Source: a virus
Virus record (IMG/VR): IMGVR_UViG_3300028189_000047
Coordinates: 1 to 27,848 of that record
Direction: 5' to 3' (one strand)
Length of the DNA stretch: 27,848 nucleotides
Part shown: in pieces, positions 6,448 through 22,101 of the stretch
How the letters are laid out: every line of letters begins with the position of its first letter
Position numbering within the stretch: position 1 is the first letter of the stretch
The notes under the pieces: model-generated
Databases searched by the model: none
What the model was told of the DNA's origin: nothing
Seen by the model: only the letters and a program-made list of their open reading frames with translations
Translations under genes and position numbers: made by a program

Positions 6448-6696
6448 CTAAACTCTATCTTTTATATTTAATTCCTCCTCTAATCTTTTTACACCTAAAT
6501 ATTCTCTTTGACGTTCTGGAATAAATGATTCAACATTTAGTGAGTATGATATTTCATACAACATTCTCCAATGTTTAGAACAAACAAATAACTTACATCT
6601 TACGTAGTTTAAATTAGTATAACCCCAACATGAATAAGTAATAGCATTATTAAGATCTAACTCTTCTCCACAGAAATGACATTTATTAACATTCAC
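6448..6696 (-). CDS. Small zinc-finger protein of unknown function
   Basis: The frame has CHFCGEEL near the N-terminus and VRCKLFVCSKHW in the middle, so two Cys pairs and a His could form a treble-clef type zinc site. No further domain is seen. The start is uncertain: GTG at 6696 has GGGAG at 8 bases, while TTG at 6711 has poor spacing. Either start lies inside the end of the polymerase gene, implying translational coupling. It is the last gene before the terminator. Confidence 0.65.
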   Translation of the reverse strand: MNVNKCHFCGEELDLNNAITYSCWGYTNLNYVRCKLFVCSKHWRMLYEISYSLNVESFIPERQREYLGVKRLEEELNIKDRV

Positions 6697-9010
6697 CCCA
6701 GTTTCTCCCAACCTTTACATCAACTAATACATCACCTATTAATGTATTTTTCTCTAATATACTCTTACATTTCTCTATTAAATCTTCTTCACTTTGATGT
6801 ATTTTAAAATACACAGCATCATGTTTAGTATGTATTACTTTACTCTTTTTATATTTAAGATAGTTATGACAATCTAATACCTTTGGCCAAAATATTGCAG
6901 AACTACCAGCTTGAATAGGAAAATTAACAGATTGTCTAAATATATCACCGTCCATATCAAATATATTATACTGTTTAGTTATGAACCTTCTTTTCCTACC
7001 TACAATATCAACTATTTCACCATTAAATAATGCATCATCTCTAAACCCATTTAACATTTTCTTTACATTTTTAAAATTCCTAAAGAATCCTTTCTTTAAC
7101 TCTTCTGCAAACTCTGCTTCCATGTCAAATTCTATCGCAATACTTTCAGATCCTCTACCATATAATACACCATAAATAACACCTTTAATCTGTGTCCATA
7201 TATCTTCTGTATAATCTAAGTTAATTATCATCTTTGTGAGTTGTTGCTTTACATCTGGTGAATCTAGAATCTCTATTAATTTATTTTCCTTTGCTAAGTA
7301 CGCAGCGATCCTTAATTCAAACTGTTTATAATCCATACCAACAAACATAAATCCTTGTTCTGTAGTAAACAGTTCTCTATAACCACCTTCTCTTGGTATT
7401 GTATGTAGAGGTGATGTTAATCTACCACTAACTGTTCCATTAATATTATTAGAATTATGAATTTTACCATCATATTGTAATAACTTAAATAGATCTGTAT
7501 TATAATCCGGTGTATATGAACTCAAGTTTTCAGAGTATTCTAAAAGTTGTAACTCAGTTTTAATTAACTCAACTTTAGAATACTCCTTCTTATTAATCAC
7601 ACCTGTAAGATATGTTCCTAAACCTTTAACCAAATGTCTCAGTTCTAATAATAATTTAGGTGCTTCATGTTTATTTTCTAGTATTTTTAATGCTGCCTCG
7701 TTTGTACAAGGAGCACCAGTAGGTGTTTTAGATGGACATTTTAATTTCAAATCTTTATATAATACTTCACCAACTTGTTTTGTTGAGTTCCAATTTATAG
7801 GTGATATATCATTAAGTTTTCTTTTTATTCTAACACATTCAAGATTTTTATTTAAACTTAAATTCTTTAATCTATTTATATCTATAGTTATTCCTGTTGA
7901 TTCTATATCTATAAGCATTCTATTAACAGGCATAATAGTTTTAAAGAACAAATCTTCATAACCATCTATCACTATCCAATCCTTGAATATATTATACAGT
8001 CTAAATGTTACATCAGTATCAAAGTTATTATACAATGCTACCTTATTTATATCTTCTTTATCTAAAGCTAATTTACTTTCTAAATTATAATAAGGTACAT
8101 CTGTATATACTGATGCAAGCGTCTTTAAACCATGACTTACATTGTCGTTTAATATACCTATTGCAGCATAAGTATCAAAATACCAATTCTGTACTTCTAT
8201 ACCATACCTATTTTTAAGAAACAAAACATCAAACTTGGTATGTGATACAGATCTTATATTTAATGCAAATATCTTCTTATACCATTCTTGATTAAAAGGT
8301 ATACATATAGATGAACCTTCAGCAAAAGAGAAACTACAAGTTACTATATTATCATTATATGTATTCAGACCAGTAGTTTCTATATCAAAAGCATATGAAT
8401 TACATTTACTTACCAAATTATACACCTTTTGAAAATCTTCTGTATATATGTATTTTCTTGGTATAGGTTTATATTTACCTTCTAGTACACGAAACGCCTT
8501 ATATATATCTGATTGAAACTCAAACAAATTAGCTGGTCTCTTAATCAAAGAACTAGGATGATATGTAGGCATTATTCTTATACCTTCCCTAATATCATCA
8601 AACACATACCCCCTCACATCAGATATTTTCTTATTACCTAAGAAATATTTTGTAGCTACTGCACCTAAAGGGACAATAACTTTAGGTTTAATTTCAAATA
8701 TTTCATCTTCTAAATAATCCTTACATGCCAATACTTCAGGTGGTTTAGGATTACCCTTAGATAATTGCATACACTTTAAAAGTGTAGTCCTATATACATC
8801 ATTTAATTTATAACCTGCCTTCTCTACACACTCTGACAATAACATACCTATTACACCAGATATGGGTGACCCATATACAGCATCTTGTTGACCAATAACA
8901 TCACCAACAAACATTATCTTATTATCAGTATTACCTTCACCCATAATCCAATGATTCATTCTTTTATTTCTACTATTCTTTCCTAAGTGACATTTATCAC
9001 ACTTTCTCAT
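6686..9010 (-). CDS. Family A DNA polymerase with 3'-5' exonuclease and N-terminal uracil-DNA-glycosylase-like domain
   Basis: This is the replicative polymerase. Residues 1-180 resemble a family 4 iron-sulfur UDG: C4, C7, C80 and C96 as cluster ligands, VGDVIGQQDAVYGSPISG as active-site loop and PTYHPSSL near 149-156. The exonuclease shows exo I FDIETTGL (D209, E211), exo II SHTKFD (D261) and exo III YNNFD (D331). The polymerase shows motif A MDYKQFELR (D560), motif B KGVIYGVLYG (609-618) and motif C KHDAVYF (H730, D731). Motif C has Ala where Glu usually follows Asp. A similar UDG-polymerase fusion is known in SPO1-like phages. ATG at 9010 has AAGGAGA upstream. Confidence 0.93.
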   Translation of the reverse strand: MRKCDKCHLGKNSRNKRMNHWIMGEGNTDNKIMFVGDVIGQQDAVYGSPISGVIGMLLSECVEKAGYKLNDVYRTTLLKCMQLSKGNPKPPEVLACKDYLEDEIFEIKPKVIVPLGAVATKYFLGNKKISDVRGYVFDDIREGIRIMPTYHPSSLIKRPANLFEFQSDIYKAFRVLEGKYKPIPRKYIYTEDFQKVYNLVSKCNSYAFDIETTGLNTYNDNIVTCSFSFAEGSSICIPFNQEWYKKIFALNIRSVSHTKFDVLFLKNRYGIEVQNWYFDTYAAIGILNDNVSHGLKTLASVYTDVPYYNLESKLALDKEDINKVALYNNFDTDVTFRLYNIFKDWIVIDGYEDLFFKTIMPVNRMLIDIESTGITIDINRLKNLSLNKNLECVRIKRKLNDISPINWNSTKQVGEVLYKDLKLKCPSKTPTGAPCTNEAALKILENKHEAPKLLLELRHLVKGLGTYLTGVINKKEYSKVELIKTELQLLEYSENLSSYTPDYNTDLFKLLQYDGKIHNSNNINGTVSGRLTSPLHTIPREGGYRELFTTEQGFMFVGMDYKQFELRIAAYLAKENKLIEILDSPDVKQQLTKMIINLDYTEDIWTQIKGVIYGVLYGRGSESIAIEFDMEAEFAEELKKGFFRNFKNVKKMLNGFRDDALFNGEIVDIVGRKRRFITKQYNIFDMDGDIFRQSVNFPIQAGSSAIFWPKVLDCHNYLKYKKSKVIHTKHDAVYFKIHQSEEDLIEKCKSILEKNTLIGDVLVDVKVGRNWGEC

Positions 9011-9915: not shown

Positions 9916-10108
9916 AATTTTCCTTTTTTAAAGATATTAAATATTTTTCATGTTGTTCTAAAGGTATATGTTTAGGTATAGAATAAAAACAAATATTACA
10001 ATATTGTGGAAGAAGATCTGGATCATGTATATTAGGATCATGTATATTAGGATCATGTATATTAGGATCATGTATAGATCCACAACACGCACATTTATAC
10101 ACACTCAA
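9908..10108 (-). CDS. HIPxxQ-tail zinc ribbon protein 4, with NIHDP pentapeptide repeats
   Basis: The first Cys pair (YKCACCG) and second (YCNICF) are separated by tandem copies of the pentapeptide NIHDP, then the tail IPKHIPLEQHEKYLI follows. The repeats come from a 15-bp DNA unit present 3.8 times, so the loop between zinc knuckles has expanded. There is no ATG: TTG at 10108 overlaps the stop of the upstream gene (TTGA), and GTG at 10102 is the alternative. Function is unknown. Confidence 0.78.
   Translation of the reverse strand: MSVYKCACCGSIHDPNIHDPNIHDPNIHDPDLLPQYCNICFYSIPKHIPLEQHEKYLISLKKENYD
10020..10076. repeat. 15-bp tandem repeat, about 3.8 copies
   Basis: The plus-strand unit GGATCATGTATATTA is repeated at 10020, 10035 and 10050, with a partial fourth copy from 10065. 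The unit is a multiple of three and lies inside a gene, so copy changes would alter protein length without a frameshift. Confidence 0.95.
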
Positions 10109-10359
10109 TTTAAGTTACTAAAAGGTGTAATCGTAGGTAGATCTAACACATACAAGTAATCATATTTAATTGTTTTTATTCCTAACCTCTTCTGAAATAT
10201 ACTAAATTCATAACAACTATACTGTGGTGATGAGAAAAATTCAACCATATGATCTTTAACCTTTTCTATAGTATAACCTTTTTTCTCACTGAAAGAACCT
10301 GTAAATTCTTCCCATTTTTTATCACCTATTTTTCTAATATTTACCTTATATTTATTCAT
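10105..10359 (-). CDS. Small protein of unknown function
   Basis: An 84-aa protein starting MNKYKVNIRKIGDKKWEEF, with alternating polar and aromatic residues that suggest a small alpha/beta fold. No motif is recognised. ATG at 10359 has an AGGAGA ribosome site. It is the first gene after the 450-base non-coding region, so it leads the transcript into the zinc-ribbon and polymerase operon. Confidence 0.75.
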   Translation of the reverse strand: MNKYKVNIRKIGDKKWEEFTGSFSEKKGYTIEKVKDHMVEFFSSPQYSCYEFSIFQKRLGIKTIKYDYLYVLDLPTITPFSNLN

Positions 10360-10389
10360 TTTTCATCTCCTGCAAAACTAAGAATGTTG

Positions 10390-10415
10390 TTGACATAATT
10401 CAATCTGTATGTCAA
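10390..10415. repeat. Inverted repeat TTGACATA-N10-TATGTCAA
   Basis: Two perfect 8-base arms (10390-10397 and 10408-10415). Each arm contains TTGACA reading inward, but neither has a good -10 at 16-18 bases, so an operator-like site is more likely than a promoter pair. It lies in the leader of the gene at 10105-10359. Confidence 0.6.
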
Positions 10416-10468
10416 GTGAAATATAGTTGTCATAAGTCCTGTAAAATGAGGTGTTATCTAAAATATGC

Positions 10469-10497
10469 TTGACACATTTTAAGATACTTGTTATAAT
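10469..10497 (+). promoter_or_regulatory. Consensus sigma70-type promoter on the plus strand
   Basis: TTGACA (10469-10474), a 17-base spacer and TATAAT (10492-10497) match the consensus at all 12 positions. It points rightwards while every gene in the window points leftwards. Predicted transcription start is near 10504, immediately before two hairpins. No plus-strand gene follows. Confidence 0.8.
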
Positions 10498-10506
10498 TAA
10501 TCTTTT

Positions 10507-10530
10507 AAGAAACTTGTTTCTTATTTTTTT
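10507..10530 (+). terminator. Terminator-like hairpin directly after the plus-strand promoter
   Basis: AAGAAAC, a 2-base gap and GTTTCTT form a perfect inverted repeat (as RNA a six-pair stem with a CUUG loop), followed by A and seven T. A transcript from the plus promoter would meet it within a few bases of its start. Confidence 0.5.
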
Positions 10531-10570
10531 AGCTTTTTTGAATGAACGTAGTGAATGGAAGCTAAAAAAA
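10524..10570. repeat. 12-bp perfect inverted repeat with 23-base loop
   Basis: TTTTTTTAGCTT (10524-10535) and AAGCTAAAAAAA (10559-10570) are exact complements. The loop contains GAATGAACGTAGTGAATGG. It shares its T-run with the preceding terminator-like hairpin. It may act as a bidirectional terminator, a cruciform or part of a small RNA. Confidence 0.65.
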
Positions 10571-10602
10571 TCACATCAAAATTTAGTTTTTAAAATAAAA
10601 AT

Positions 10603-10611
10603 ATTATAACA
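10603..10611 (-). promoter_or_regulatory. Possible extended -10 promoter towards the polymerase operon
   Basis: On the minus strand TGTTATAAT is an extended -10 element (TG, one base, TATAAT), without a clear -35. It could drive the gene at 10359 and the operon beyond, with a leader of over 200 bases crossing the plus-strand promoter region. In such AT-rich DNA chance matches are easy. Confidence 0.35.
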
Positions 10612-10767
10612 TAAAAAATTAAATTTTAAAATAAGTTTTTTAAAAAGTCATCATTTAATTTAGGAAAGGTACACACTTATTTTATTACAGTATACTCAGA
10701 ATCATTAAATCATTAAATCTTTTCATACAGATTTTAGAACAAAAATATTATATTCTCCTGTAAGAAT

Positions 10768-10798
10768 GGATGCTGTTAGCATTATACCAACAGCATCC
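10768..10798 (-). terminator. Hairpin after the band-7-like gene
   Basis: GGATGCTGTT (10768-10777) and AACAGCATCC (10789-10798) form a perfect 10-bp stem with an 11-base loop, 15 bases past the stop codon at 10814. It is much richer in GC than its surroundings. The following minus-strand bases are only partly T-rich, so termination is likely but not certain. Confidence 0.6.
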
Positions 10799-10813
10799 AA
10801 TTATAAAAATAAG

Positions 10814-11242
10814 TTACCTCTTTCCAGCTTCTAAAATAGGCATATTAGCTTCTGTAGGAATATAAATAACCTCACTACTTCCATCTTGTAGGCCTTTAAC
10901 CCATAGGTACTTTAAATACTCTTCGTTTTCTTTCAAGCTTTCACCTATAATCTCATTGGCTTCTGCAACACCTTTTGCTCTTTCAACTTCTGCATTAGCC
11001 CAACCTGTAGCTTTCACAATACTAGCTTCAGCATATAAAGATGCACTATCTCGTTCAGCTTTTGCTTCTTCTACAAGAACTTTCTTTGTCCATTCCTTTT
11101 CTCTCAACTCAGCTTGACCTCTCAAGTCCTGCTTGTATATCCTATATTTTGGAAATACATACATAGATACTGATACAATACCAATAATAAAAGCTAAAAT
11201 TATAGACAAGGTAATTATTACTGATTTAAGTTCTTTGTTCAT
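10814..11242 (-). CDS. Membrane protein with band-7/SPFH-like coiled-coil segment
   Basis: A 142-aa protein with one N-terminal membrane helix (SVIITLSIILAFIIGIVSVS, roughly residues 7-26), then a charged helix with repeated E-A-x-A patterns (EEAKAERDSASLYAEASIVK, then WANAEVERAKGVAEANEIIG), like the C-terminal helical part of prohibitin/HflC (SPFH) proteins; it ends with a short IYIPTEANMPIL segment. It is too short for a full SPFH domain. It would sit in the host membrane, perhaps as an oligomer. ATG at 11242 is chosen because GGAGG sits 6 bases upstream; the earlier ATG at 11254 overlaps that site. Confidence 0.75.
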   Translation of the reverse strand: MNKELKSVIITLSIILAFIIGIVSVSMYVFPKYRIYKQDLRGQAELREKEWTKKVLVEEAKAERDSASLYAEASIVKATGWANAEVERAKGVAEANEIIGESLKENEEYLKYLWVKGLQDGSSEVIYIPTEANMPILEAGKR

Positions 11243-11269
11243 AATATCCTCCATAAAATTAAAAAAAAA

Positions 11270-11374
11270 TTAACAATTAAAAGCAACCACAGTTCCTACA
11301 ACAACTATTGAAAAAATAACTAACCACTCACCACTTGACCTACCATAAAAAAGATTAACAAATCTATACAACAT
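11270..11374 (-). CDS. 34-aa membrane peptide
   Basis: MLYRFVNLFYGRSSGEW is followed by a hydrophobic segment (LVIFSIVVVGTVVAF) that would span the membrane once. AAGGAG sits 6-8 bases before the ATG at 11374. It is tiny but has a good ribosome site and lies in line with the operon. The sequence just upstream holds a broken gene with a similar start. Function is unknown. Confidence 0.6.
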   Translation of the reverse strand: MLYRFVNLFYGRSSGEWLVIFSIVVVGTVVAFNC

Positions 11375-11386
11375 AATACAACTCCT

Positions 11387-11484
11387 TTATAATATTATTA
11401 TAAATATAAAAACAACTATTAAAAAACTACTGACTGTTCAAAACTTGATAAACTTTCCATAAATTGAATAAGTTTATGTAACAT
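11387..11484 (-). pseudogene. Frameshifted paralogue of the 34-aa membrane peptide
   Basis: From ATG at 11484 the frame reads MLHKLIQFMESLSSFEQSVVF and stops at 11419. One extra T in a run of six T would continue it as LIVVFIFIIIL, a membrane segment ending at 11387. The layout matches the neighbouring peptide (MLYRFVNLFYGRSS plus a hydrophobic tail). It may be a decayed duplicate or a sequencing error. Confidence 0.45.
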
Positions 11485-11503
11485 AATAATATCTCATTAA
11501 AAA

Positions 11504-12412
11504 TTAATCTACACCAACCACTGACCAACTGGCTAAAGCTGTATTCTGTATAGCTTCACATACACTATTTAGTGTTAATGTTCCATGTTCCTTATGTGAA
11601 ACATAAGATTCACAATAGTGTTTACCTTTATACAAGATATATTTATTTACTGTGTGACTGTTACCACCTTTTTCTTTGGGTAAATCAAAATGTAAAGAAA
11701 ATGAATCTGGATCTAATTTAATATCACTAGGTATAAAGAACCATTCACCTTGTCTTTGTGCAAATTTACCACTATCCTTTTCATACTTTAAAACTCTTCT
11801 AGGTTTAAGAGATTTGAATGCAGCATCAACACTTTTAGGATTGGTCTTTAACTTAGATATAAAATAACTGTCATCATCCATACCACATATATAACTAGAA
11901 TTTTTATACTTAATTAACATACTTCCTGCAATATGATATGATTTTTCATAAATTGCACCACTAGGCTTTCCTGTTTTTTTAATAAAGTTTCTGCGCTCTT
12001 TATATGTGGCACCTTGAGGAACTGTCTTTTCAAAATTTTTAAAATTCTTCTTTTTTGGTGTTGTGTAATTAGATCTATCTTGGGTAATATCAATTACTTG
12101 CATGTCAGATACTACTACACCTGCATTTTTTAAACAAGTAAAGCTTGTGGTTATTACATCTTTACTACAATTTTGTAATTCTTCAATAGTTTCATTAATA
12201 TCATATCCTGATTCATAACCATCATATTCATCACCATTAATAACTATAAACTTACCTGATTTTATTGCTATATCAAAATTATTATAACTATCATATTGTA
12301 ATACACCTTCACATATGAAAAATTCTGATAAATTTTGTTTTTGACCGGTCATAAAATATTCAATTATATCAAAATTACAAATAACATCTTCTAAAATTTG
12401 TTTCTTTTTCAC
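11504..12412 (-). CDS. 302-aa protein with RQGEWFF motif, unknown function
   Basis: The protein appears to have an N-terminal half rich in D/Y/N (residues 30-110), a basic linker (PKKKNFKNFEKT, then YKERRNFIKKTGKPS) and a conserved-looking C-terminal region: AQRQGEWFFIPSDIKLDPD (218-236), then HTVNKYILYKGKHYCESYV and SHKEHGTLTL. The Q-R-Q-G-E-W-F-F...H-x-x-E-H-G pattern recalls uncharacterised proteins in other phages and plasmids, but I cannot attach a function. ATG at 12412 has AGGAG upstream. It is the longest unknown in the ligase-band 7 segment. Confidence 0.8.
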   Translation of the reverse strand: MKKKQILEDVICNFDIIEYFMTGQKQNLSEFFICEGVLQYDSYNNFDIAIKSGKFIVINGDEYDGYESGYDINETIEELQNCSKDVITTSFTCLKNAGVVVSDMQVIDITQDRSNYTTPKKKNFKNFEKTVPQGATYKERRNFIKKTGKPSGAIYEKSYHIAGSMLIKYKNSSYICGMDDDSYFISKLKTNPKSVDAAFKSLKPRRVLKYEKDSGKFAQRQGEWFFIPSDIKLDPDSFSLHFDLPKEKGGNSHTVNKYILYKGKHYCESYVSHKEHGTLTLNSVCEAIQNTALASWSVVGVD

Positions 12413-12421
12413 AATATTCTC

Positions 12422-12604
12422 CTAAACTTTTTCTATAAATATATAACAAAAACAATATTTACATCCACATGGAAAGTTATCATCATAACTATCAAAATGT
12501 CTATAATAAACATGACCACATTCACATACTCTATCGTCACCATATTTAATATTATAGAGTTTTTCTATGGTAGTTACTATCTTTTCTAAATATGGTTGTT
12601 CCAT
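12422..12604 (-). CDS. Small zinc-finger protein (CxCGH...CxxC type)
   Basis: A 60-aa protein. After a 25-residue helix come VCECGHVYYRHFDSYDDN and PCGCKYCFCYIF, giving a C-x-C-G-H / C-x-C-x-x-C-x-C arrangement that should hold one or two zinc ions. This spacing is seen in small uncharacterised phage and actinobacterial proteins. It differs from the HIPxxQ family. ATG at 12604 shares a base with the stop of the gene before it, so translation is coupled. Confidence 0.78.
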   Translation of the reverse strand: MEQPYLEKIVTTIEKLYNIKYGDDRVCECGHVYYRHFDSYDDNFPCGCKYCFCYIFIEKV

Positions 12605-12858
12605 TAATCCTCCATAATTTTTGATTCAATAAGAGATATATTACTTCTAATAATATTAAAAACACCTGAATCATATGGTATCATATACAATTCAGATTCT
12701 TTAGAATACCACCATTTATAGAATTTTTTACAATTTCCTATTTTTGATTTACCTTTATAATCACCTTGTATTAGTTGTATAGGTGTAGTACCATCTTTAA
12801 AGTAAATAGTTAAAACTGCTTTTCTATTTATATTCTTTACTTTCTTTTTACCAAACAT
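12604..12858 (-). CDS. Small protein of unknown function, ancestrally coupled to ligase
   Basis: An 84-aa basic protein (MFGKKKVKNINRK) with a strand-rich middle (AVLTIYFKDGTTPIQLIQG) and KKFYKWWYSKESELYMIP. No family is recognised. ATG at 12858 has AAGGAG upstream and overlaps (TAATG) the stop codon of a leftover ligase 3' end, indicating that before the GIY-YIG insertion this gene directly followed the ligase. Confidence 0.75.
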   Translation of the reverse strand: MFGKKKVKNINRKAVLTIYFKDGTTPIQLIQGDYKGKSKIGNCKKFYKWWYSKESELYMIPYDSGVFNIIRSNISLIESKIMED

Positions 12859-12950
12859 TATAAACTCCTTTCTTTACCGTGTATACATTTAAATGTAGGA
12901 AATCTTAAAGATATAGAACCATCTTTAGAATTAGTTGTTTCTTCAAAATA
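12858..12950 (-). pseudogene. Orphan copy of the DNA ligase 3' end
   Basis: The minus strand from 12950 encodes YFEETTNSKDGSISLRFPTF and ends at TAA 12860-12858. The true ligase ends YFEETVNEKGGISLRFPVF with its own tail. At DNA level the two share the block TATTTTGAAGAAACA and the block around ATCTTAAAGATT-like codons for S-L-R-F. The copy has no start codon and is preceded by a stop. It is the likely original ligase end, displaced by an insertion of about 500 bases. Confidence 0.8.
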
Positions 12951-13142
12951 TTATTTATATAGGTTAAATTTTCCAACACATAATATAAAAACTATACAAC
13001 AAATAACAATTATACCACCAAATGCAAATATAGACTTTGTTTCATAAGAAATGGGCATATAAGTAATACAAATTGCCCATATAGAATTAATTACTAATGA
13101 TATAATTACTATTTTTGTAAAAGCATACCAGTTAATATTCAT
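12951..13142 (-). CDS. Two-helix membrane protein within the ligase insertion
   Basis: A 63-aa protein with two hydrophobic segments (IVIISLVINSIWAICITYM and a second near FAFGGIIVICCIVFILCVG) and short polar ends. AAAGGA precedes ATG at 13142. Its stop codon abuts the orphan ligase 3' end, so it lies wholly inside the inserted block. It may be cargo of the insertion. No family is recognised. Confidence 0.65.
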   Translation of the reverse strand: MNINWYAFTKIVIISLVINSIWAICITYMPISYETKSIFAFGGIIVICCIVFILCVGKFNLYK

Positions 13143-13184
13143 ACTATCCTTTCTTTTTATTATAGTTTAATTTTAATGATTCAC

Positions 13185-13382
13185 TTATTTTCTTTTTAAA
13201 TATTTATTATGTATTGGTTTATTTCTTAAAACTTTAATAATTGTATCTTTATATCTAGTATTTTTACCTTTACCAACATAAAACGGTAAAAATACTAACT
13301 CTTTATATTTAGAATTATTAAATAAAGATCTACCATCACAATAAACATAAACGTAATAGTTATTCTGTTCTTTTATTTCCAT
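13185..13382 (-). CDS. GIY-YIG-type homing endonuclease, truncated
   Basis: The sequence has YYVYVYCDGR, then LPFYVGKGKNTRYKDTI, the paired motifs of GIY-YIG nucleases of the Y-V-Y-x-Y / F-Y-V-G-K-G-K type, including the Arg of the active site. It is only 65 aa and stops soon after HNKYLKRK. One base shift in an A-run would extend it with KISESLKLNYNKKKG to 13144, which resembles the small DNA-binding repeats found behind such nucleases. It overlaps the ligase end by 23 bases. ATG at 13382 is preferred to TTG at 13394; no ribosome site is clear. It is probably a decaying homing endonuclease. Confidence 0.72.
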   Translation of the reverse strand: MEIKEQNNYYVYVYCDGRSLFNNSKYKELVFLPFYVGKGKNTRYKDTIIKVLRNKPIHNKYLKRK

Positions 13383-14631
13383 AATTATGTACAAATACTG
13401 GGAATCTTAGAGATATTCCACCTTTCTCATTAACTGTTTCTTCAAAATATCTAACTTTTATTACCTTACCAATAATTTCATTAGGATTCTTATAATAACA
13501 CTCTCTTTGTTCTTTAGTAAACCCACTACCTACTTTAACTGTATTTCCTTTATGACTAATCTCTACAGCAGATAATGTCATTCTTCCTACATCTTTACCA
13601 TTCTCAAAGAATCTAATTTCATCATTAATAACACCTTTAACCTCATACTCTGCATCAATAAATGATTTTACTTTAAGTAAGTCATTAGATCTTTTACCTT
13701 TATAACCTACATTCTTTCTAAGCATAACACCTTCATAACCTTTTTCTTTTGCTTCTACCTCTAATTCTTTTAACTCTTCTTTACTACTAACTATAGTTTG
13801 TGAAAGTTTCTCTGTGGTATTACAAATTGGTATTCTTTTCAATCTTTCTGAAAATATAACACTAGATGATTTACTATTAAATTCTTCTGTAGTTAAAGCA
13901 TCGAATATAAAGAACTTAGGATTTCTTATATTATGATTCTTCTTCTTTATTTCCTTCATAACACCTTGGAAATCTTCTTTATTATCCTTATCTACTATAC
14001 ATACCTCACCATCAAATACAATATTTTTAAGACCTAATTGATAAAGATTTAGTTTCAATACACTTAAAGTAGTGAATAATTTCCCTGTCCTTGATAGAAA
14101 CTTAATCTCACCATATTCATCTATCTTACAAATACATCTTACACCATCTAACTTTCTACTACCATACCACTCATCTTTATAGTCTACTAACTTCTCTTCA
14201 TATTTATTTGCAAGTGCTACTTTGAACTCTGGTATAAATCCTGGAACTACTTTATTAATAATAGATGCATTAGCTCTAGTCTCAAGATCCTTATCTATAA
14301 TATTATATATTAGATCTCTATGTGTCTGATTATTAAATATGAAAGTTTTTACTGATCTTAGAGCATCATGACCTGTCAATTTTCTACTACAAAGATCGTC
14401 TAGTAGAATAAACAAACTACCTGTAGATACACCAACTGGACTTTTATCAAACTTTTTTACTTTATCACTTGTTATACCATAAGTTTTATCTTCATCATTT
14501 GTGTAAAGTAATACTTTCATTATGAATTCATTACATATATACTTCTTTAATATTTCCTTCTTTTTATTTGAAGATGGTGTTGACTTCATATCATCAACAA
14601 ATTTTTGTAAGTTTTCAAAATCATTGTTCAT
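13360..14631 (-). CDS. ATP-dependent DNA ligase
   Basis: The ligase seals nicks using ATP through a lysyl-AMP intermediate. The motifs are in order: motif I KLDGVR with the adenylated Lys K160, motif III FDGE (206-209), motif IV EGVMLR (300-305) and motif V LLKVK (318-322). An OB-fold domain follows and ends ISLRFPVFVHNYGNKRTE. Its first 140 residues are an extra N-terminal helical region, as in T4-like and other phage ligases. The last roughly 30 codons appear to have been replaced by a second copy during insertion of a GIY-YIG element, whose displaced original lies at 12858-12950. Confidence 0.92.
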   Translation of the reverse strand: MNNDFENLQKFVDDMKSTPSSNKKKEILKKYICNEFIMKVLLYTNDEDKTYGITSDKVKKFDKSPVGVSTGSLFILLDDLCSRKLTGHDALRSVKTFIFNNQTHRDLIYNIIDKDLETRANASIINKVVPGFIPEFKVALANKYEEKLVDYKDEWYGSRKLDGVRCICKIDEYGEIKFLSRTGKLFTTLSVLKLNLYQLGLKNIVFDGEVCIVDKDNKEDFQGVMKEIKKKNHNIRNPKFFIFDALTTEEFNSKSSSVIFSERLKRIPICNTTEKLSQTIVSSKEELKELEVEAKEKGYEGVMLRKNVGYKGKRSNDLLKVKSFIDAEYEVKGVINDEIRFFENGKDVGRMTLSAVEISHKGNTVKVGSGFTKEQRECYYKNPNEIIGKVIKVRYFEETVNEKGGISLRFPVFVHNYGNKRTE

Positions 14632-14634
14632 AAA

Positions 14635-14775
14635 CTAATAACCTTCCCATATAAATATTAAACCTAAAATAGACCAACCAACACCAGTATTACCGTTGGT
14701 TAAATACATACAATATGCACCTAAACCACAAACTGCAATACTAGCCAAACCTTGAGATATTTTAATATTTTTCAT
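14635..14775 (-). CDS. 46-aa membrane protein
   Basis: MKNIKISQGLASIAVCGLGA is followed by a short TNGNTG turn and GWSILGLIFIWEGY, giving two hydrophobic segments. ATG at 14775 forms an ATGA overlap with the preceding gene. It is intact across its length. Function is unknown; several such small membrane proteins lie in this part of the genome. Confidence 0.6.
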   Translation of the reverse strand: MKNIKISQGLASIAVCGLGAYCMYLTNGNTGVGWSILGLIFIWEGY

Positions 14776-14996
14776 TTTGATTTAAAATCCTTTTGACTAG
14801 TTAAATGATAATGTCTACAAATATTACACTTGTAATGTCTTTTACCTATATTACTGGCAAGTTTCTTTGCTTGTATTCTAGTATGTGCAATTTTTGCACA
14901 TACATTAGATATTACTTCTCTACCACCAAATTTCATAAAACATGTTTTTCTTCTTTTCCTATTCCTTATTCTAGCATTAAAAGTTTTTTTTATCAT
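14772..14996 (-). CDS. Small basic protein with C-terminal zinc knuckle
   Basis: A 74-aa, strongly basic protein (MIKKTFNARIRNRKRRKTCF) with a helical middle and the ending HYKCNICRHYHLTSQK. The C-x-x-C-x-x-Y-H-L-T ending is common in small phage zinc proteins of unknown role. The charge suggests nucleic-acid binding. No clear ribosome site precedes ATG at 14996. It follows the small membrane protein gene at 15013 closely. Confidence 0.7.
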   Translation of the reverse strand: MIKKTFNARIRNRKRRKTCFMKFGGREVISNVCAKIAHTRIQAKKLASNIGKRHYKCNICRHYHLTSQKDFKSK

Positions 14997-15012
14997 AGTA
15001 TTAGTAATAAAT

Positions 15013-15174
15013 TTAAAAATATGTTAAAAATCCCCAAGTTGCTATACCAGTAGCAATAACAAATTGAAATATTCTCTGATTTCTAGTAATTTTAATTTGT
15101 TTAAAACTTGATTGCAAAATAACAGTAGACTTGATTGCAAATAATATACTACATACTAGTACAAATGTTTCCAT
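15013..15174 (-). CDS. 53-aa membrane protein
   Basis: METFVLVCSILFAIKSTVIL forms the first membrane segment, a basic stretch (KQIKITRNQR) a cytoplasmic loop, and FQFVIATGIATWGFLTYF the second. TAGGAGA lies upstream of ATG at 15174. It lies directly after the tRNA. Function is unknown. Confidence 0.65.
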   Translation of the reverse strand: METFVLVCSILFAIKSTVILQSSFKQIKITRNQRIFQFVIATGIATWGFLTYF

Positions 15175-15195
15175 AATTTTTCTCCTATTAAGTTA

Positions 15196-15266
15196 AAGGG
15201 GTGGTGAGACTCGAACTCACATTATCTGCGTCAAAGGCAGATGCCTTTCCCAATGGCTACACCCCA
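15196..15266 (-). tRNA. tRNA-Gln (anticodon UUG)
   Basis: The minus strand folds as a cloverleaf: acceptor TGGGGTG pairs with CACCCC, D-arm GCC/GGC, anticodon stem CTGC/GCAG with loop CTTTGAC (anticodon TTG, reading CAA), and T-arm GTGAG-TTCGAGT-CTCAC. CCA is not encoded. Position 1 and 72 are both T and would not pair; the weak 1-72 pair is a feature of Gln tRNAs, but a full mismatch is unusual. CAA is the dominant Gln codon in these genes, so the tRNA would support phage translation. Confidence 0.9.
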
Positions 15267-15270
15267 TTTC

Positions 15271-15294
15271 TAAAATTAAAATATTATTTAAAGT
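15271..15294. repeat. 24-bp direct repeat, left copy
   Basis: It is an exact match to 19345-19368, in the same orientation. It lies between the kinase stop and the tRNA. The two copies bracket exactly the kinase, PP2C, VWA and nicotinamidase genes. The sequence is nearly all A/T, so a chance match is possible, but the location is suggestive. Confidence 0.75.
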
Positions 15295-15299
15295 CCTTA

Positions 15300-16997
15300 C
15301 TAAGTTTTTAATTTCATACTATATAACTTTGTACCTTCTGCAAAAAGTACTGTTATACCATCTTTCATCAACAACATTGATGTGCGAATATCTTTACTAT
15401 CTACAACTCTAATTCTAGTATTGTTCAAATTATTAAAATAAATTTCCATCTGCCCATCTTCTACTATAGATGCCACAACTCCGTTCTCCAAAACTATAAA
15501 ATTATTATATTTATAATCTACATCTTTAGTGGTTCTCAATGAGTAATTATCATATTTTTCAGAAAATACAATTGTAACTCTATCATACATACCATCTTTA
15601 AAACATATTATCTGGACAACTTGTGAATCATGCTTTGCTTCAATAATCTTATAATCCTCTAATTCAGATATAGGTATTACATGGCATTGTGTGGACTTCT
15701 TTGTAGGTACAGGTATCATCAAATAAGGTTTTCCTAAAATACTTTGATAAACTAAACCAGAAAACATCTCACTAGAATTTGGCATTATATTCCAATAGGA
15801 TCTAACAGTTTTAATTAAAGTATTATTAAGTATTTTGAATCTCACCTCAGACAACATATTATTATATTGTAAAAATACACTATTGCCTACAACCATCATA
15901 TCATCTGCTCGTAATTGAATACTATCTTGAGGTAAATTTAACTCATTAGTTATTGATAAAATACCTTTATCTATGTGAACAAATATTGGCATTTGTGTAT
16001 TTTCTTCAATTACTAATTCAGTCTTTGTGGAAGAGAGAGTATGTTCTTTCTTATTAATTTGGATCTTACTTGATCCTTTTACTATGTTTTTATTTTCATA
16101 TCTTTTATAGTATAAGATATTTTCTGAAAAATCAAGATTCATAATCTCTTTAACAATAAATTTTTCTACTGAACTAATCACTTTAACTACACCAACTATA
16201 GGTATAAGCTTTCCCATATTTTCAGGAGGTGCTTCACGAACACCATTTTCAAACAACCTTTGAAACCATTCTAAATAGGTATCAGGTATAACATTAAAAT
16301 CTCTAACAGCAGATGGTAATCTTATATTAGAACCAAATATAGATGCATTTTCTTTCATTCGTTTTATTAATTCTTTTTTATTATATTGTGAATGCTTACC
16401 CTTATAAGGATGTATACCAATCAATAACTGACAAGTAAGTATTGCGAATGAAAACCAATCAGTATTTTCATTAAAACCTTTTGTTTGGTGGTCTTTAACA
16501 TAAGGCATTATTGCTGTTGCTGGATAACTTGGTGTTTGGTATGAATCAACATCTATAAAATAAGGACATTGAAACTTTGTATCTACTAATATATTTAATT
16601 CATTAAGATCAACAATAAGACACTTTTTAGAATGGATATTATTTATAACATTTCTCAAAACATTTATAAGATCTATAGCCATCTTATCAGATATATTGTT
16701 CATATTTCTGAAATCATTAGTAAACAATTTACAAATAGAAATAGTTTTCTTGATCCAATCCATTGTGAAACCTACATCAACCTGTCTACTATTACTGAGA
16801 ATATTTAAAGGTACTATGACTTTAGAATCAGTAATATTTTTTAATTCTAAAATCTTCCCATTAGCAATCATTTTACTACGGTCATGATAGATTTTATAAA
16901 TACTAGAACCTTTTCCGTAGACTTCACCCTCACCTCCTTTAGTTATAAAATCATTTTGAGTAAGGCTTATTTTTTTACCATTCTCATACACTATCAA
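15300..16997 (-). CDS. Serine/threonine protein kinase-like protein of a VWA/PP2C/kinase triad
   Basis: The N-terminal 280 residues are a protein-kinase fold: glycine loop KGGEGEVYG (20-28), Lys35 in IYKIY, catalytic loop VDLNELNIL (D130, N135; HRD is replaced by IVD), metal-binding DVD in place of DFG (D149) and TDWFSFAILTCQLLIGIHPY, the helix typical after the activation loop. The remaining 280 residues are strand-rich and may be a beta-propeller-like sensor; no family is recognised. Essential residues are present, so activity is plausible. TTG at 16997 follows GGAGG by 8 bases, and the gene overlaps the phosphatase by 14. Kinase, PP2C and VWA in one operon match the TerY-P triad of Ter systems. 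Confidence 0.82.
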   Translation of the reverse strand: MIVYENGKKISLTQNDFITKGGEGEVYGKGSSIYKIYHDRSKMIANGKILELKNITDSKVIVPLNILSNSRQVDVGFTMDWIKKTISICKLFTNDFRNMNNISDKMAIDLINVLRNVINNIHSKKCLIVDLNELNILVDTKFQCPYFIDVDSYQTPSYPATAIMPYVKDHQTKGFNENTDWFSFAILTCQLLIGIHPYKGKHSQYNKKELIKRMKENASIFGSNIRLPSAVRDFNVIPDTYLEWFQRLFENGVREAPPENMGKLIPIVGVVKVISSVEKFIVKEIMNLDFSENILYYKRYENKNIVKGSSKIQINKKEHTLSSTKTELVIEENTQMPIFVHIDKGILSITNELNLPQDSIQLRADDMMVVGNSVFLQYNNMLSEVRFKILNNTLIKTVRSYWNIMPNSSEMFSGLVYQSILGKPYLMIPVPTKKSTQCHVIPISELEDYKIIEAKHDSQVVQIICFKDGMYDRVTIVFSEKYDNYSLRTTKDVDYKYNNFIVLENGVVASIVEDGQMEIYFNNLNNTRIRVVDSKDIRTSMLLMKDGITVLFAEGTKLYSMKLKT

Positions 16998-17772
16998 AAT
17001 AAAAACCTCCTATGGAAATATCATCATAATGTGTTCCTAATTTTTTTATTGCTTTATTAGATCTACGCTTAACAAATTCTCCTTTAATATTTTTAAAGGA
17101 TGTAAATTCATTAACTACTTCTACTATATTATCTGCAAAATCACCTGAAAAAGATTCAATACCATCAGAAGCAATTAAAACAGCTTTAACATCTTTTTTA
17201 GGTATATTTATTTGAAAAGGTTTATTAACAGGTATATTATTATTGTACATATTAACACCTGCAAAATAACGTTTCTCAAACACATAAGGACTAAACTTTT
17301 TAAGATATTTTTCCACATCTTCTGAACTCTTCAAATAAGATAAATAGAAAGGCGCATTCTCTGCATATGAGTAATTCATAATTTGTACTCTACCATCTTT
17401 CATAATCTGAATAATACTACCATCTCCGAAAACTCTCACTAAAATTTGATCTTCAACAACCATTGCACACATCAAAGTAGCATCTAAACAAGCATGATCT
17501 AATCCCATTAAAGTCACTACATCTAAAGAAGGTTGTAAAACTGTGAATTTAGGCAAAGACAAACCTTTATCAGCTTTAAATTCTACAAACATATCATCAA
17601 GAAATGTTCTATGAGCTTGACTTACAAGTATTCTGGCGCCTATATCAGTATTATGAGAACTAGAACAACCGTCTGAAAGAATTACATAAGGAAATGGTTT
17701 TGTCCCATGCCTTATGTAATCCTCACAGATCGAATGAGCAGTTCCTTTAGTTAAAAAAGAATCTACTTGCAT
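16984..17772 (-). CDS. PP2C-family protein phosphatase
   Basis: A 262-aa metal-dependent Ser/Thr phosphatase. Motifs in order: EDYI (17-20), VILSDGCSSSHNTDIGARI with metal-binding D34-G35, LDATLMCAMV (97-106), VRVFGDGSI (112-120), VLIASDGIESF with D203, and HYDDISIGGF with D250/D251. All expected metal ligands are present. It would remove phosphates placed by the adjacent kinase, possibly on the VWA protein. ATG at 17772 follows the VWA stop by one base, so the two are translated together. Confidence 0.88.
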   Translation of the reverse strand: MQVDSFLTKGTAHSICEDYIRHGTKPFPYVILSDGCSSSHNTDIGARILVSQAHRTFLDDMFVEFKADKGLSLPKFTVLQPSLDVVTLMGLDHACLDATLMCAMVVEDQILVRVFGDGSIIQIMKDGRVQIMNYSYAENAPFYLSYLKSSEDVEKYLKKFSPYVFEKRYFAGVNMYNNNIPVNKPFQINIPKKDVKAVLIASDGIESFSGDFADNIVEVVNEFTSFKNIKGEFVKRRSNKAIKKLGTHYDDISIGGFYFDSV

Positions 17773-17773
17773 A

Positions 17774-18517
17774 TTAGAATCCAGCTATTTGGCTGGGACC
17801 TCCTGTTCCTATAGACTGGCTTTGGCTTGAAATACTTTGACTAACAAAGTCAGCTAATTGAGCAAGCTTACTTTCAGTAGCATCACCAACATTAATAAAC
17901 TTATCAAGATTGGCGTCCTGTTTAAAAGATTCCAAACATTGTTTGACAGTACTATCTTCAATATTAACACCTACAAGAACTGATATTAAGGATTCAATTT
18001 CTTCATCATGACCAACCTTCTTAATCCAGTTAGATATTCCTTCAGGTGTCATAGTTGATCTATTATCCATACCATCTGTAATAATGTACAAAGCACCATT
18101 AACATCAAAATCTTGATCTATAAGTGTTTTTGCAAAAGTTACTATAGATCCAACTCCTGAGTAAGCTGCATCAAATAATGCTGTCATACCTGATGGATTC
18201 AAACTTTTATAATCATCTATGTCTATAGTATTCAAAGTTTTAAATCCGTGAATCTCTTCCAACTCATGGTTGAATGAAATAAGTCTAATCATAAGATTCT
18301 CTGCTCTTGGTGACTTCTTACAAGCTTCTACAATTTTCTTAATAGTTTTTACCAACTCTGTATCAAAATCTCTAACACTTGATGATCTATCCACAGCTAT
18401 AACTACCAATGTGTACTCTGTTGCTCCTAAATCTTCAGGTCTAATACCTGAAAAATTAAAAGCACCAGTTCCAGGAATTGTTGATTTTACTAAGTCATCT
18501 CCCATTAAATTTGGCAT
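17774..18517 (-). CDS. VWA-domain protein (TerY-like)
   Basis: A 247-aa von Willebrand A-domain protein with a complete MIDAS metal site: DRSSS (D43, S45, S47), T112 in PSGMTALFD and D148 in YIITDGMDN. Such domains bind a divalent metal and mediate protein contacts. The C-terminal tail is Ser/Gln/Gly-rich (SQSISSQSQSIGTGGPSQIA) and may be a flexible or phosphorylated region. The start at 18517 has GAAAGG upstream. With the adjacent PP2C and kinase it forms a triad like TerY-P in tellurite/stress-resistance islands. It is soluble, with no membrane helix or signal peptide. Confidence 0.88.
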   Translation of the reverse strand: MPNLMGDDLVKSTIPGTGAFNFSGIRPEDLGATEYTLVVIAVDRSSSVRDFDTELVKTIKKIVEACKKSPRAENLMIRLISFNHELEEIHGFKTLNTIDIDDYKSLNPSGMTALFDAAYSGVGSIVTFAKTLIDQDFDVNGALYIITDGMDNRSTMTPEGISNWIKKVGHDEEIESLISVLVGVNIEDSTVKQCLESFKQDANLDKFINVGDATESKLAQLADFVSQSISSQSQSIGTGGPSQIAGF

Positions 18518-18530
18518 ATTAACAACCTTT

Positions 18531-19322
18531 CTATTTTAAAAAGTCTATTGAATTAGAAACCTGCATACCTCTACTCTTTAAATCATTTACAAAATCTATT
18601 CCAAGCTGCTCAAAAGAAGGAACATTTGAAGTAGCATCTTCTAGTAAAACCAACTTCTTAATACTATCATCTCCAAATGCATTAGCAACATCTGTTACAG
18701 TATTAGCTACACAATGTGACAAAGCTTCTCCTGCTATAACTACAATATCAGCCCTTTCAAGAGTTTCAATAAGTCTTGTATTTAACATAGTACCAGGATC
18801 TTCAGGATCAGGTACATCTGCTTGAACTGCTGAATAATGTTCTGTCCAAAAATTACTACCTTTTGTAACATAATCTACCATTTTGAAAGACTTTTCCCAC
18901 TCTGTAAGTACATTGAACAATTCTGGAACTACTTGATATCCTTCTGAACCTATCAAACAATGTGGAGGCCATATACATAGTAGATATCTACTGTTAATAT
19001 CAAGTGTTTTTACATACTCTAAAGCTCTTTTTTGAAAATTAGGATTTGTAGATCTCCAAACTCCATTTTCCACATCATCTTTACTAATCAATGTGAATGG
19101 GTTTGGGTGTTTACCATCACTATCTATCCAAAATATTGGATGAGCTATATCTACATAATGATGACTATCTAAAGTTACGTGAATATCTTTGATCTTACCA
19201 CCTAAACGAGAAATCATACTAGAAAGTCTTTGTATATCTTTATCTGCACCAGGTACAAACAAAGAACCTTTTGGATCACAAAAATCTTTTTGTGGGTCAA
19301 TAATTAATAATTCTAAATTCAA
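18531..19322 (-). CDS. Nicotinamidase / cysteine hydrolase (PncA-like)
   Basis: PncA-type enzymes convert nicotinamide to nicotinic acid for NAD salvage. The isochorismatase fold shows LLIIDPQKDF with catalytic D9, YVTKGSNFW with Lys154 and EALSHCVANT with nucleophile C204. Metal ligands are plausible at D52 and H54 (LDSHHYVDIAHP) and H121 (WPPHCLIGSEG). At 263 aa it is somewhat long, with a loop near 65-90. TTG at 19322 is preceded by AAGGAGA. It is the first gene of the repeat-flanked cassette. The exact substrate is inferred from motifs; other amidohydrolases share the fold. Confidence 0.82.
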   Translation of the reverse strand: MNLELLIIDPQKDFCDPKGSLFVPGADKDIQRLSSMISRLGGKIKDIHVTLDSHHYVDIAHPIFWIDSDGKHPNPFTLISKDDVENGVWRSTNPNFQKRALEYVKTLDINSRYLLCIWPPHCLIGSEGYQVVPELFNVLTEWEKSFKMVDYVTKGSNFWTEHYSAVQADVPDPEDPGTMLNTRLIETLERADIVVIAGEALSHCVANTVTDVANAFGDDSIKKLVLLEDATSNVPSFEQLGIDFVNDLKSRGMQVSNSIDFLK

Positions 19323-20070: not shown

Positions 20071-22101
20071 TTAAAAGTTAATTTTTATAGTTCTTGAGAA
20101 ACTACCAGTTACTCTACAGTAAACACTGTTTCTTTGTGTAGAGCTAAATCCAAGACCACTCAACTGATCATTAGACTTCTCTGTTTTCATTTTAGATCCA
20201 AGTACTTCAAACACTTTTCTATGTTTAGTTAGATCGTTACTAAGAAATTCATTATAAAATCCTCTTCCTTTTTCTTGATTCCTACATCCTTCTAATATAA
20301 AGAACCAATGTTTGTTACCTGTAATATAATCATCCCAGTTATTAGGTGAGTTCATTATCATAGAAACATTCTGGAATTTTTGTGTATTAATTCCCCACAC
20401 TTCTTTGGTTGCTTTAGTAGATGGTAAAGATTTAATTATCTTAATACCATATGCATGTGTGTACTCAAACTCTGCAACTTTAACATACCCAGATACAGGT
20501 TTATCATAATGGAATGAATGTATTTCACCACCAAATTCTATCTCTACATCAAATCCTACATCAACTGTTTCACGTTTAGAAAATTGACGTACTTTCAATA
20601 CATATTTTCCTTCAATCATTTTAGCCTTATTCTTATAAGTTATGTTCTCTACAGCATTTCTACTTCTTCCACCACCAGCATTCATATCAACATCAAGCTT
20701 TCCACCTTTAGGTGAACTCTTACGACCATAATAAATGGTTATACCACCTTTTGGTTCTATTAAATGAATATCTAAGTCATCATAATTAAACCAAGATAAA
20801 GAACACCTTAAATCACCAGTCACACTACCACCAGCTTTCTTTACTCGTTCCTTAATAGAATCTGTAACTTCACCATTATATGACCAAGAGAAGTTATTAT
20901 CCCATTTAAAGATTCTCTTTGAATCCTTATTTACTGGTGCTATCAAACTCATAAGATTACCAGTATGACTATTATCAAATAGTAATTCAATCTTATCAGC
21001 CTTTGGTACTACATCCTCAATGAATGTTTTAATATCTACTTCATCTACTTTCTTTAGATTAGGTAGTTTATCTTGTGCTTCACTTTTCAATTCATCAAAA
21101 ACATTCATTGACTTCTTTACTTCTCTGTTAGCAAACAATACATTATTGATGGTTATGTCATCAGTGACTGCATAACGTCTTTGTAATGACTCACCAATAC
21201 CAAGTTCTTCTACTTTCTTCTGAGCATTATCTATCATACTTTTTGTAACTAATGCTGTAGGTCTTTTATAGTTTGCTGGTGCAACCTTAGTTTCAAAAGA
21301 CTTCACTGATGCATCTAAAGGTTTACCATCTGAAATATCAACTAGTAAAGTACCAATCACAGTATTTCTTATCTTAGATGCAGATTTAAGTATTATAGAT
21401 GTATCCCAACAATAGTTATCTTTCTCACTACTATCAATGATCTTATCATAAATATCTTTATGTTTTAAGAATAGTTCTACAATACCTTTATGTTCTGCAC
21501 CTCTGTAGATGGAGTTTTGTTCTATTAGTTCTAAAACTGTCTCTACTGATTCTAATGTTATTTCATCTAATCCACGTTTAAATACTTCTTTATTACTTCT
21601 TAATTCTGATAGTTTTGTACCAACTCTATCACCACTCATTACAAATTTAGTAGGTAATTTAAAATGAAGATGATTCCATTTTATTATTTCACCATCTTCT
21701 AACATTTGATTATTAAAATCAGTTCCTATCTGTTGCTCATAATGTAAGAATACATCTGCAATGAGGTTGGATTTAACTAGTTTAGACAAGGCATCTACTA
21801 CAACTTGATAGCTACCACCTACTTCAACATCCCATATAGAAACTAACTTGTTATCCTTAATAGTAACAACATTACCAGAAGCTCTTATAAATTGTCTACA
21901 ACTTTGACAATCATGTTCTGTACGTTCTTTATATATAGGATTAGTTCCTTCTGGAAATGAAGAAAGATAAGTATCCCATAATAGGTCTTTATCTACATTT
22001 GTTCTAAATAATTGAGTCTTAGACATTAATTTAAATTGCTCATGAATCGGTGCTTTTAAATCAGTAAAGTTTAACTTCTTTTTTTCTAGTGTAGCTAACA
22101 T
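20071..22101 (-). CDS. 676-aa phage protein with YfaP/DUF2135-like beta-sandwich domain
   Basis: Residues about 428-545 read GDLRCSLSWFNYDDLDIHLI, then EPKGGITIYYGRKSSPKGGK and LDVDMNAGGGRSRNAVENI, which match the YfaP/DUF2135 pattern (D-L-D-L-H-V-x-E-P-x-G...G-G-x-L-D-x-D). The N-terminal 420 residues have a CQSC motif (65-68) and are otherwise novel to me; the C-terminal 130 include WFFILEGCRN and QLSGLGFSSTQRNSVYCRV. No catalytic site is evident. Domain type suggests binding or surface contact; it is encoded just upstream of the VWA/PP2C/kinase cassette but outside its flanking repeats. ATG at 22101 has AAGGAGG. Confidence 0.78.
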   Translation of the reverse strand: MLATLEKKKLNFTDLKAPIHEQFKLMSKTQLFRTNVDKDLLWDTYLSSFPEGTNPIYKERTEHDCQSCRQFIRASGNVVTIKDNKLVSIWDVEVGGSYQVVVDALSKLVKSNLIADVFLHYEQQIGTDFNNQMLEDGEIIKWNHLHFKLPTKFVMSGDRVGTKLSELRSNKEVFKRGLDEITLESVETVLELIEQNSIYRGAEHKGIVELFLKHKDIYDKIIDSSEKDNYCWDTSIILKSASKIRNTVIGTLLVDISDGKPLDASVKSFETKVAPANYKRPTALVTKSMIDNAQKKVEELGIGESLQRRYAVTDDITINNVLFANREVKKSMNVFDELKSEAQDKLPNLKKVDEVDIKTFIEDVVPKADKIELLFDNSHTGNLMSLIAPVNKDSKRIFKWDNNFSWSYNGEVTDSIKERVKKAGGSVTGDLRCSLSWFNYDDLDIHLIEPKGGITIYYGRKSSPKGGKLDVDMNAGGGRSRNAVENITYKNKAKMIEGKYVLKVRQFSKRETVDVGFDVEIEFGGEIHSFHYDKPVSGYVKVAEFEYTHAYGIKIIKSLPSTKATKEVWGINTQKFQNVSMIMNSPNNWDDYITGNKHWFFILEGCRNQEKGRGFYNEFLSNDLTKHRKVFEVLGSKMKTEKSNDQLSGLGFSSTQRNSVYCRVTGSFSRTIKINF

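Follow-up and report, generated by a model that had tools for sequence, protein, structure and literature searches.

Triads of a VWA-domain protein, a PP2C-type phosphatase and a protein kinase are widespread, and we know of none with an established physiological target. Bacteria often halt infection through destruction of NAD, nicotinamide is released whenever NAD+ is cleaved, and in the Preiss-Handler route PncA makes nicotinic acid from nicotinamide, after which PncB, NadD and NadE give NAD+. Among the described triads, TerY-P combines a VWA protein and a PP2C with a Ser/Thr kinase that has a C-terminal zinc ribbon or, in a variant, an OB-fold, and TerY-P-like modules with an OB-fold kinase have been reported as stand-alone antiphage systems (PMC11090510). 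E. coli YegL-PphC (YegK)-YegI consists of VWA, PP2C and kinase proteins homologous to those of the phage triad described here, encoded in the same gene order. For NAD+ repletion by phages, two reports describe NadV together with NadM/NadR, of the NARP2 type (PMC9503650, PMC7824862), and a third describes NARP1 (Adps and Namat), which reconstitutes NAD+ against NADase defence (PMC13232231).

The DNA analysed here (the window) is the IMG/VR virus record IMGVR_UViG_3300028189_000047, positions 1 to 27,848, with a length of 27,848 nt. It encodes a large terminase, a portal protein, a family A DNA polymerase, a gp32-like protein and a DnaB-like helicase, which bears out the phage context that a first-pass annotation had given to a VWA-PP2C-kinase triad in this window. 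The three ORFs were found exactly where that annotation had placed them and they form an operon: VWA and PP2C genes are 1 nt apart, PP2C and kinase genes overlap by 14 nt. The unit of three genes was, however, not complete, since a gene encoding a PncA-like nicotinamidase, 13 nt upstream of the VWA gene and on the same strand, had been overlooked as the fourth member. The features of the cassette are as follows.

15300-16997, minus strand: kinase, 565 aa, TTG start, M1 common to relatives
16182-16997, minus strand: kinase domain, residues about 1-272 (Pfam Pkinase, YegI hhalign, structure model)
15300-16169, minus strand: predicted C-terminal beta-propeller of the kinase, residues 277-565 plus stop (AlphaFold2, Foldseek)
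16984-17772, minus strand: PP2C-type Ser/Thr phosphatase, 262 aa (Pfam PP2C_2)
17774-18517, minus strand: VWA-domain protein, 247 aa, metal site D43, S45, S47, T112, D148
17777-17848, minus strand: Ser-rich C-terminal tail of the VWA protein, residues 224-247 (S226, S228, S230 and S233 conserved)
18531-19322, minus strand: PncA-like nicotinamidase with isochorismatase fold, 263 aa (matches to PDB nicotinamidase profiles)

Scans for promoters and terminators gave matches at chance level only. Elsewhere in the window, a RecA/UvsX-like recombinase with an intein-like insert (Hint and LAGLIDADG between two RecA parts) is encoded at 2711-4783 (minus strand), a uracil-DNA-glycosylase domain is fused N-terminally to the family A DNA polymerase with its 3'-5' exonuclease at 6686-9010 (minus strand), and a protein of 676 aa at 20071-22101 (minus strand) corresponds to phrog_1735 over its full length (E=1e-281) and has no Pfam match.

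The PP2C matched Pfam PP2C_2 above the cut-off (E=1.2e-9), the VWA protein (E=0.0015) and the kinase (Pkinase, E=6.5e-6) matched their Pfam models below it, and searches of PDB sequence profiles with the VWA protein and with the PP2C gave no matches. The metal-site and catalytic residues named in the first-pass annotation for these three proteins are all present and are conserved across 101-117 relatives. In the VWA protein, T112 and D148 were found in 117/117 relatives and D43, S or T45 and S47 in 116/117 each; D34, D203, D250 and D251 of the PP2C are invariant (101/101), as are D130 and D149 of the kinase (111/111), in which K35 and N135 are present in 110/111. The tail of the VWA protein retains S226 in 113, S228 in 116, S230 in 104 and S233 in all 117 relatives, which makes it a candidate phospho-site or docking tail that would be phosphorylated. 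A second VWA paralogue is encoded near the cassette in some phages (L040, L041, L044, L100, L108), and many more show remote VWA matches in other parts of the genome.

The PncA-like protein matched nicotinamidases in the PDB (2h0r, E=1e-12), and all its PDB profile matches were nicotinamidases or pyrazinamidases. The NCBIfam PncA model was matched below its cut-off (E=1.6e-6, 28.1 bits versus a cut-off of 174), as was Pfam Isochorismatase, and insertions separate the two metal-binding segments. Nevertheless, the Asp-Lys-Cys triad, the metal ligands and a WPxHC motif are all present: D9, D52, H54, H121 and C204 were found in 166/166 relatives and K154 in 165/166. By comparison with known PncA enzymes, we take D9, K154 and C204 to be catalytic and D52, H54 and H121 to be the metal ligands. 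The protein thus appears, from its sequence, to belong to a divergent nicotinamidase subfamily and would deamidate nicotinamide. The active sites of the cassette are intact and, judged by near-invariant catalytic residues in 101-166 relatives per family, all four proteins look functional and under selection.

The C-terminal half of the kinase had been described as strand-rich and unrecognised. The former was confirmed, and the half can now be given a predicted fold. AlphaFold2 modelled the whole kinase with a pLDDT of 94.9 and the C-terminal half alone with a pLDDT of 96.2 and a pTM of 0.92; the model of this half contains 27 strands in about seven blades, counted manually. A Foldseek search with it returned beta-propellers (G-beta, WDR5, the LRRK2 WD40 domain, DDB1, clathrin) with TM of about 0.5, and the modelled kinase domain returned kinases. 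We therefore assign the C-terminal half, with high confidence in the prediction, to the beta-propellers; the assignment rests on predicted structure, because a PDB sequence-profile search with this half gave chance-level matches only. LRRK2 was also the top whole-chain Foldseek match, with an identity near chance, so the modelled architecture recalls LRRK2 and common ancestry is not claimed.

The kinase and the VWA protein were first seen together in three huge phages of 595, 485 and 462 kb; the PP2C is detectable in two of them and divergent in the third. When the window was compared with these phages and the first IMG/VR relatives, leaving aside the near-identical L004, the four genes gave the only clear matches, and the sole further match, in L002, was weak and covered 42 aa. 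IMG/VR was then scanned with PncA and kinase profiles, and dereplication left 97 virus loci. All four genes were present in 85 of these, on the same strand in 85/85 and in the order PncA-VWA-PP2C-kinase in 79/85, with a median PncA-VWA gap of 43 nt. Since the loci had been chosen by PncA or kinase matches, the count from the kinase side is the fairer test: of 92 virus loci that have the kinase, 89 have PncA nearby, and two of the remaining three lie at contig ends. The pairwise distance matrices of the four families are correlated (Mantel r 0.51-0.72, reached in 0/1000 permutations), as expected of a co-inherited cassette. PncA, VWA, PP2C and kinase are conserved as one unit. The cassette or part of it is also present in virus contigs L072, L073, L075, L076, L077 and L150, whose IMG/VR names resemble isolate-genome numbers; their hosts may be cultivable.

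Neighbouring genes were clustered unsupervised, with no function chosen beforehand. Three families led by a wide margin, nicotinate phosphoribosyltransferase (PncB, 39 loci), a NUDIX/NrtR-like family (36 loci) and NAD synthetase (NadE, 35 loci), followed by a NadD-like adenylyltransferase (20 loci); Pfam and NCBIfam confirmed the representatives, several of them above curated cut-offs. These families differ from the NARP1 and NARP2 genes. LigA, NADAR, Thg1, RNA ligase and RtcB types also recur near the cassette, and no nuclease, membrane or other effector family recurred in the clustering. In 42 long phage records NadE was found 33 times and PncB (NAPRTase) 28 times. The distance from the VWA gene is at most 10 kb for NadE in 18/29 cases (2.0 expected at random) and for PncB in 10/25 (1.8 expected at random), values reached in 0/20000 simulations each. 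The cassette is thus linked to NAD genes. In a reciprocal scan from PncB, in which 80 loci were counted without dereplication, NadE was found beside 54, PncA beside 35 and VWA or kinase beside 17. Phage NAD modules therefore occur without the triad, which in turn almost never occurs without PncA, and since many phages have PncA or PncB/NadE without the triad, the pathway does not require it. For the window's own phage the nicotinamidase step alone is seen because its contigs are fragments: no PncB, NadD or NadE was seen in the window or in its 66.7-kb near-twin, both fragments, and in many relatives these three accompany the cassette. Thg1, RtcB and RNA ligase were recorded near the NAD cassette in 10, 8 and 9 loci, respectively (e.g. 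L020 6327-7151, L031 4859-6058, L167 17122-18231), a recurrence that suggests a joint region for NAD repletion and RNA repair.

The cassette was also found in bacterial contigs. In the clearest case, a Parcubacteria contig (L225), PncA-VWA-PP2C-kinase occur together with a NadD-like gene, NrtR, PncB and NadE as well as quinolinate-synthase-like and NAD-kinase-like genes (names assigned from sequence), and ribosomal protein S12 is encoded on the same contig. Among sampled cells the VWA profile turned up seldom, in 1/240 genomes of the phylum to which L225 belongs and in 3/145 of the order that includes L209. Viral branches predominate in a quick kinase tree, which shows 5-7 changes between virus and cell, and some of the cellular matches may be misbinned phage contigs. 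A search of Rfam with six bacterial loci gave no matches. An Armatimonadetes MAG contains the cassette together with NadE on a contig of 1.36 Mb (9962-15950 of locus L176, G044:C5). The kinase encoded there clusters with that of L031, a phage contig of 479 kb, and no ribosomal S12 was found in this genome. An integrated huge phage, a very large phage or an incomplete MAG are candidates for its origin. A Variovorax plasmid (L247, 9523-15767) has a PncA-VWA pair without a kinase or PP2C match, flanked by genes for NUDIX hydrolases, a macro-domain protein, a deoxyribosyltransferase and NAD kinase, possibly a reduced version of the cassette.

Since bacteria destroy NAD against infection, the cassette looks like regulated viral restoration of NAD. 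We infer that it is a phospho-switch dedicated to NAD salvage, which probably serves NAD+ repletion against NADase defences, and give this reading a probability of roughly 60%. PncA would convert nicotinamide to nicotinic acid, the entry step of the Preiss-Handler route, and PncB, NadD and NadE, often encoded on the same phages, would complete the conversion to NAD+. The substrate that the kinase would phosphorylate and the PP2C dephosphorylate would be the VWA protein, probably at its Ser-rich tail, PncA, or both. The VWA protein, which adjoins PncA and carries this tail, is the likely phospho-substrate and, via its metal site, the likely adaptor that would link the kinase/PP2C pair to PncA or its pathway, and the propeller of the kinase may act as docking or sensing platform. 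In this way the phage could adjust NAD+ resynthesis, for example upon firing of a TIR, Sir2 or other NADase defence. The earlier proposal, with modification of host or phage proteins or a role against defence as possible functions, was too vague; the PncA partner and the NAD context support regulated NAD repletion as its specific form.

The counter-defence purpose is argued by analogy, from literature on other phages, and plain metabolic support would show the same data, which counts against it. By the same mechanism the cassette might instead support ordinary phage metabolism in NAD-poor hosts, where NAD would be used by NAD-dependent DNA ligase, RNA repair and replication of a large genome. 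The LigA-, RtcB-, Thg1- and RNA-ligase-type genes nearby are in line with such a use, as is the Parcubacteria chromosome, in which the cassette sits within the cell's NAD genes and no antiphage logic is needed; but the ADP-ribose-related NADAR and NrtR recur as well, and RNA-repair neighbours are, according to one report, typical of counter-defence regions (PMC7824862). We regard this alternative as unlikely but worth keeping in view. Quite unlikely is a TerY-P/YegIKL-type defence module for superinfection exclusion with the nicotinamidase and other NAD genes as passengers of a shared accessory island. YegIKL homology, the OB-fold TerY-P-like antiphage systems (PMC11090510) and weak PADLOC matches of the kinase, e.g. 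to PD-T4-6, are consistent with it, but PncA, near-obligatory, on the same strand and mostly adjacent, does not behave like a passenger, the TerD Pfam model found nothing in the 42 long phage records, and no effector recurs among the neighbours.

Two further readings concern the substrates. The scores below the PncA and Isochorismatase cut-offs and the insertions between the metal-binding segments would also fit an amidohydrolase of the same fold that acts on another molecule, e.g. a nucleotide-derived signal. This is very unlikely in view of the full set of nicotinamidase residues including WPxHC, the exclusively nicotinamidase or pyrazinamidase matches in the PDB, and neighbours (PncB, NadD, NadE) that use the expected product of PncA. 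Finally, intact kinase and phosphatase sites in a phage would be compatible with a kinase/phosphatase pair for host takeover, with numerous targets among host or phage proteins and without a special tie to NAD, but that idea is hardly credible, as it leaves the constant PncA partner, the NAD neighbourhood and the cellular cassette within a NAD cluster unexplained.

How does the proposed phospho-switch for NAD salvage compare with known systems? The first-pass annotation had called the triad TerY-P-like. In hhalign comparisons with E. coli, YegI (E=2e-15, kinase domain only), YegL (9e-6) and PphC (3e-5) were matched, so a conserved homologous module stands; the Ter linkage and the TerY-P kinase architecture are not supported. 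Like TerY-P, the phage cassette has VWA, PP2C and a kinase with an extra C-terminal domain, but this domain is a predicted propeller instead of a zinc ribbon or OB-fold, and the constant partner is PncA. "TerY-P-like" is therefore fair as ancestry: the phage triad is homologous and maybe TerY-P-like in action, but not a member, because zinc ribbon/OB-fold is absent, as is TerD in the 42 long phage records. The C-terminal half of YegI does not align with the phage propeller, the alignment ending with the kinase domain, and unlike in the phages no nicotinamidase or NAD gene is found within the 25 kb surrounding YegL-PphC-YegI. Conversely, an NrtR-controlled NAD salvage operon of Chitinimonas (L227) combines a PncA of this subfamily with PncB, NadE and NrtR, but has no VWA-PP2C-kinase triad near PncA, and the genome has no VWA match at E 1e-20. 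Open-access literature on phage nicotinamidase/Preiss-Handler genes, or on NrtR with kinase/PP2C, gave no report of the cassette, which, given this scope, is not proof of novelty.

The NadV/NadM/NadR route likewise recovers NAD+ from nicotinamide with phage-encoded enzymes, but it is amidated and runs via NMN, and the accessible parts of these reports (PMC9503650, PMC7824862) and of that on NARP1 name neither a nicotinamidase nor a PncB/NadE pair nor a kinase triad. NARP1 differs in using ADP-ribose and nicotinamide as inputs and in having two genes, with no phospho-regulation described in the accessible part of its report (PMC13232231). Tentatively, at somewhat less than even odds, the cassette could be a third, regulated form of phage NAD+ reconstitution, in which huge phages would encode the deamidating Preiss-Handler route and the kinase/PP2C/VWA switch would gate its first enzyme, the nicotinamidase, and sense loss of NAD+, possibly via the propeller. 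The near-invariant pairing with a nicotinamidase, across huge phages and some bacterial chromosomes, offers a concrete candidate target for a VWA-PP2C-kinase triad, with a simple assay. If this is true, triads of the YegIKL/TerY-P type would have their first assigned metabolic target, and a phosphorylation-controlled route would join the means by which phages restore NAD+ against NADase immunity.
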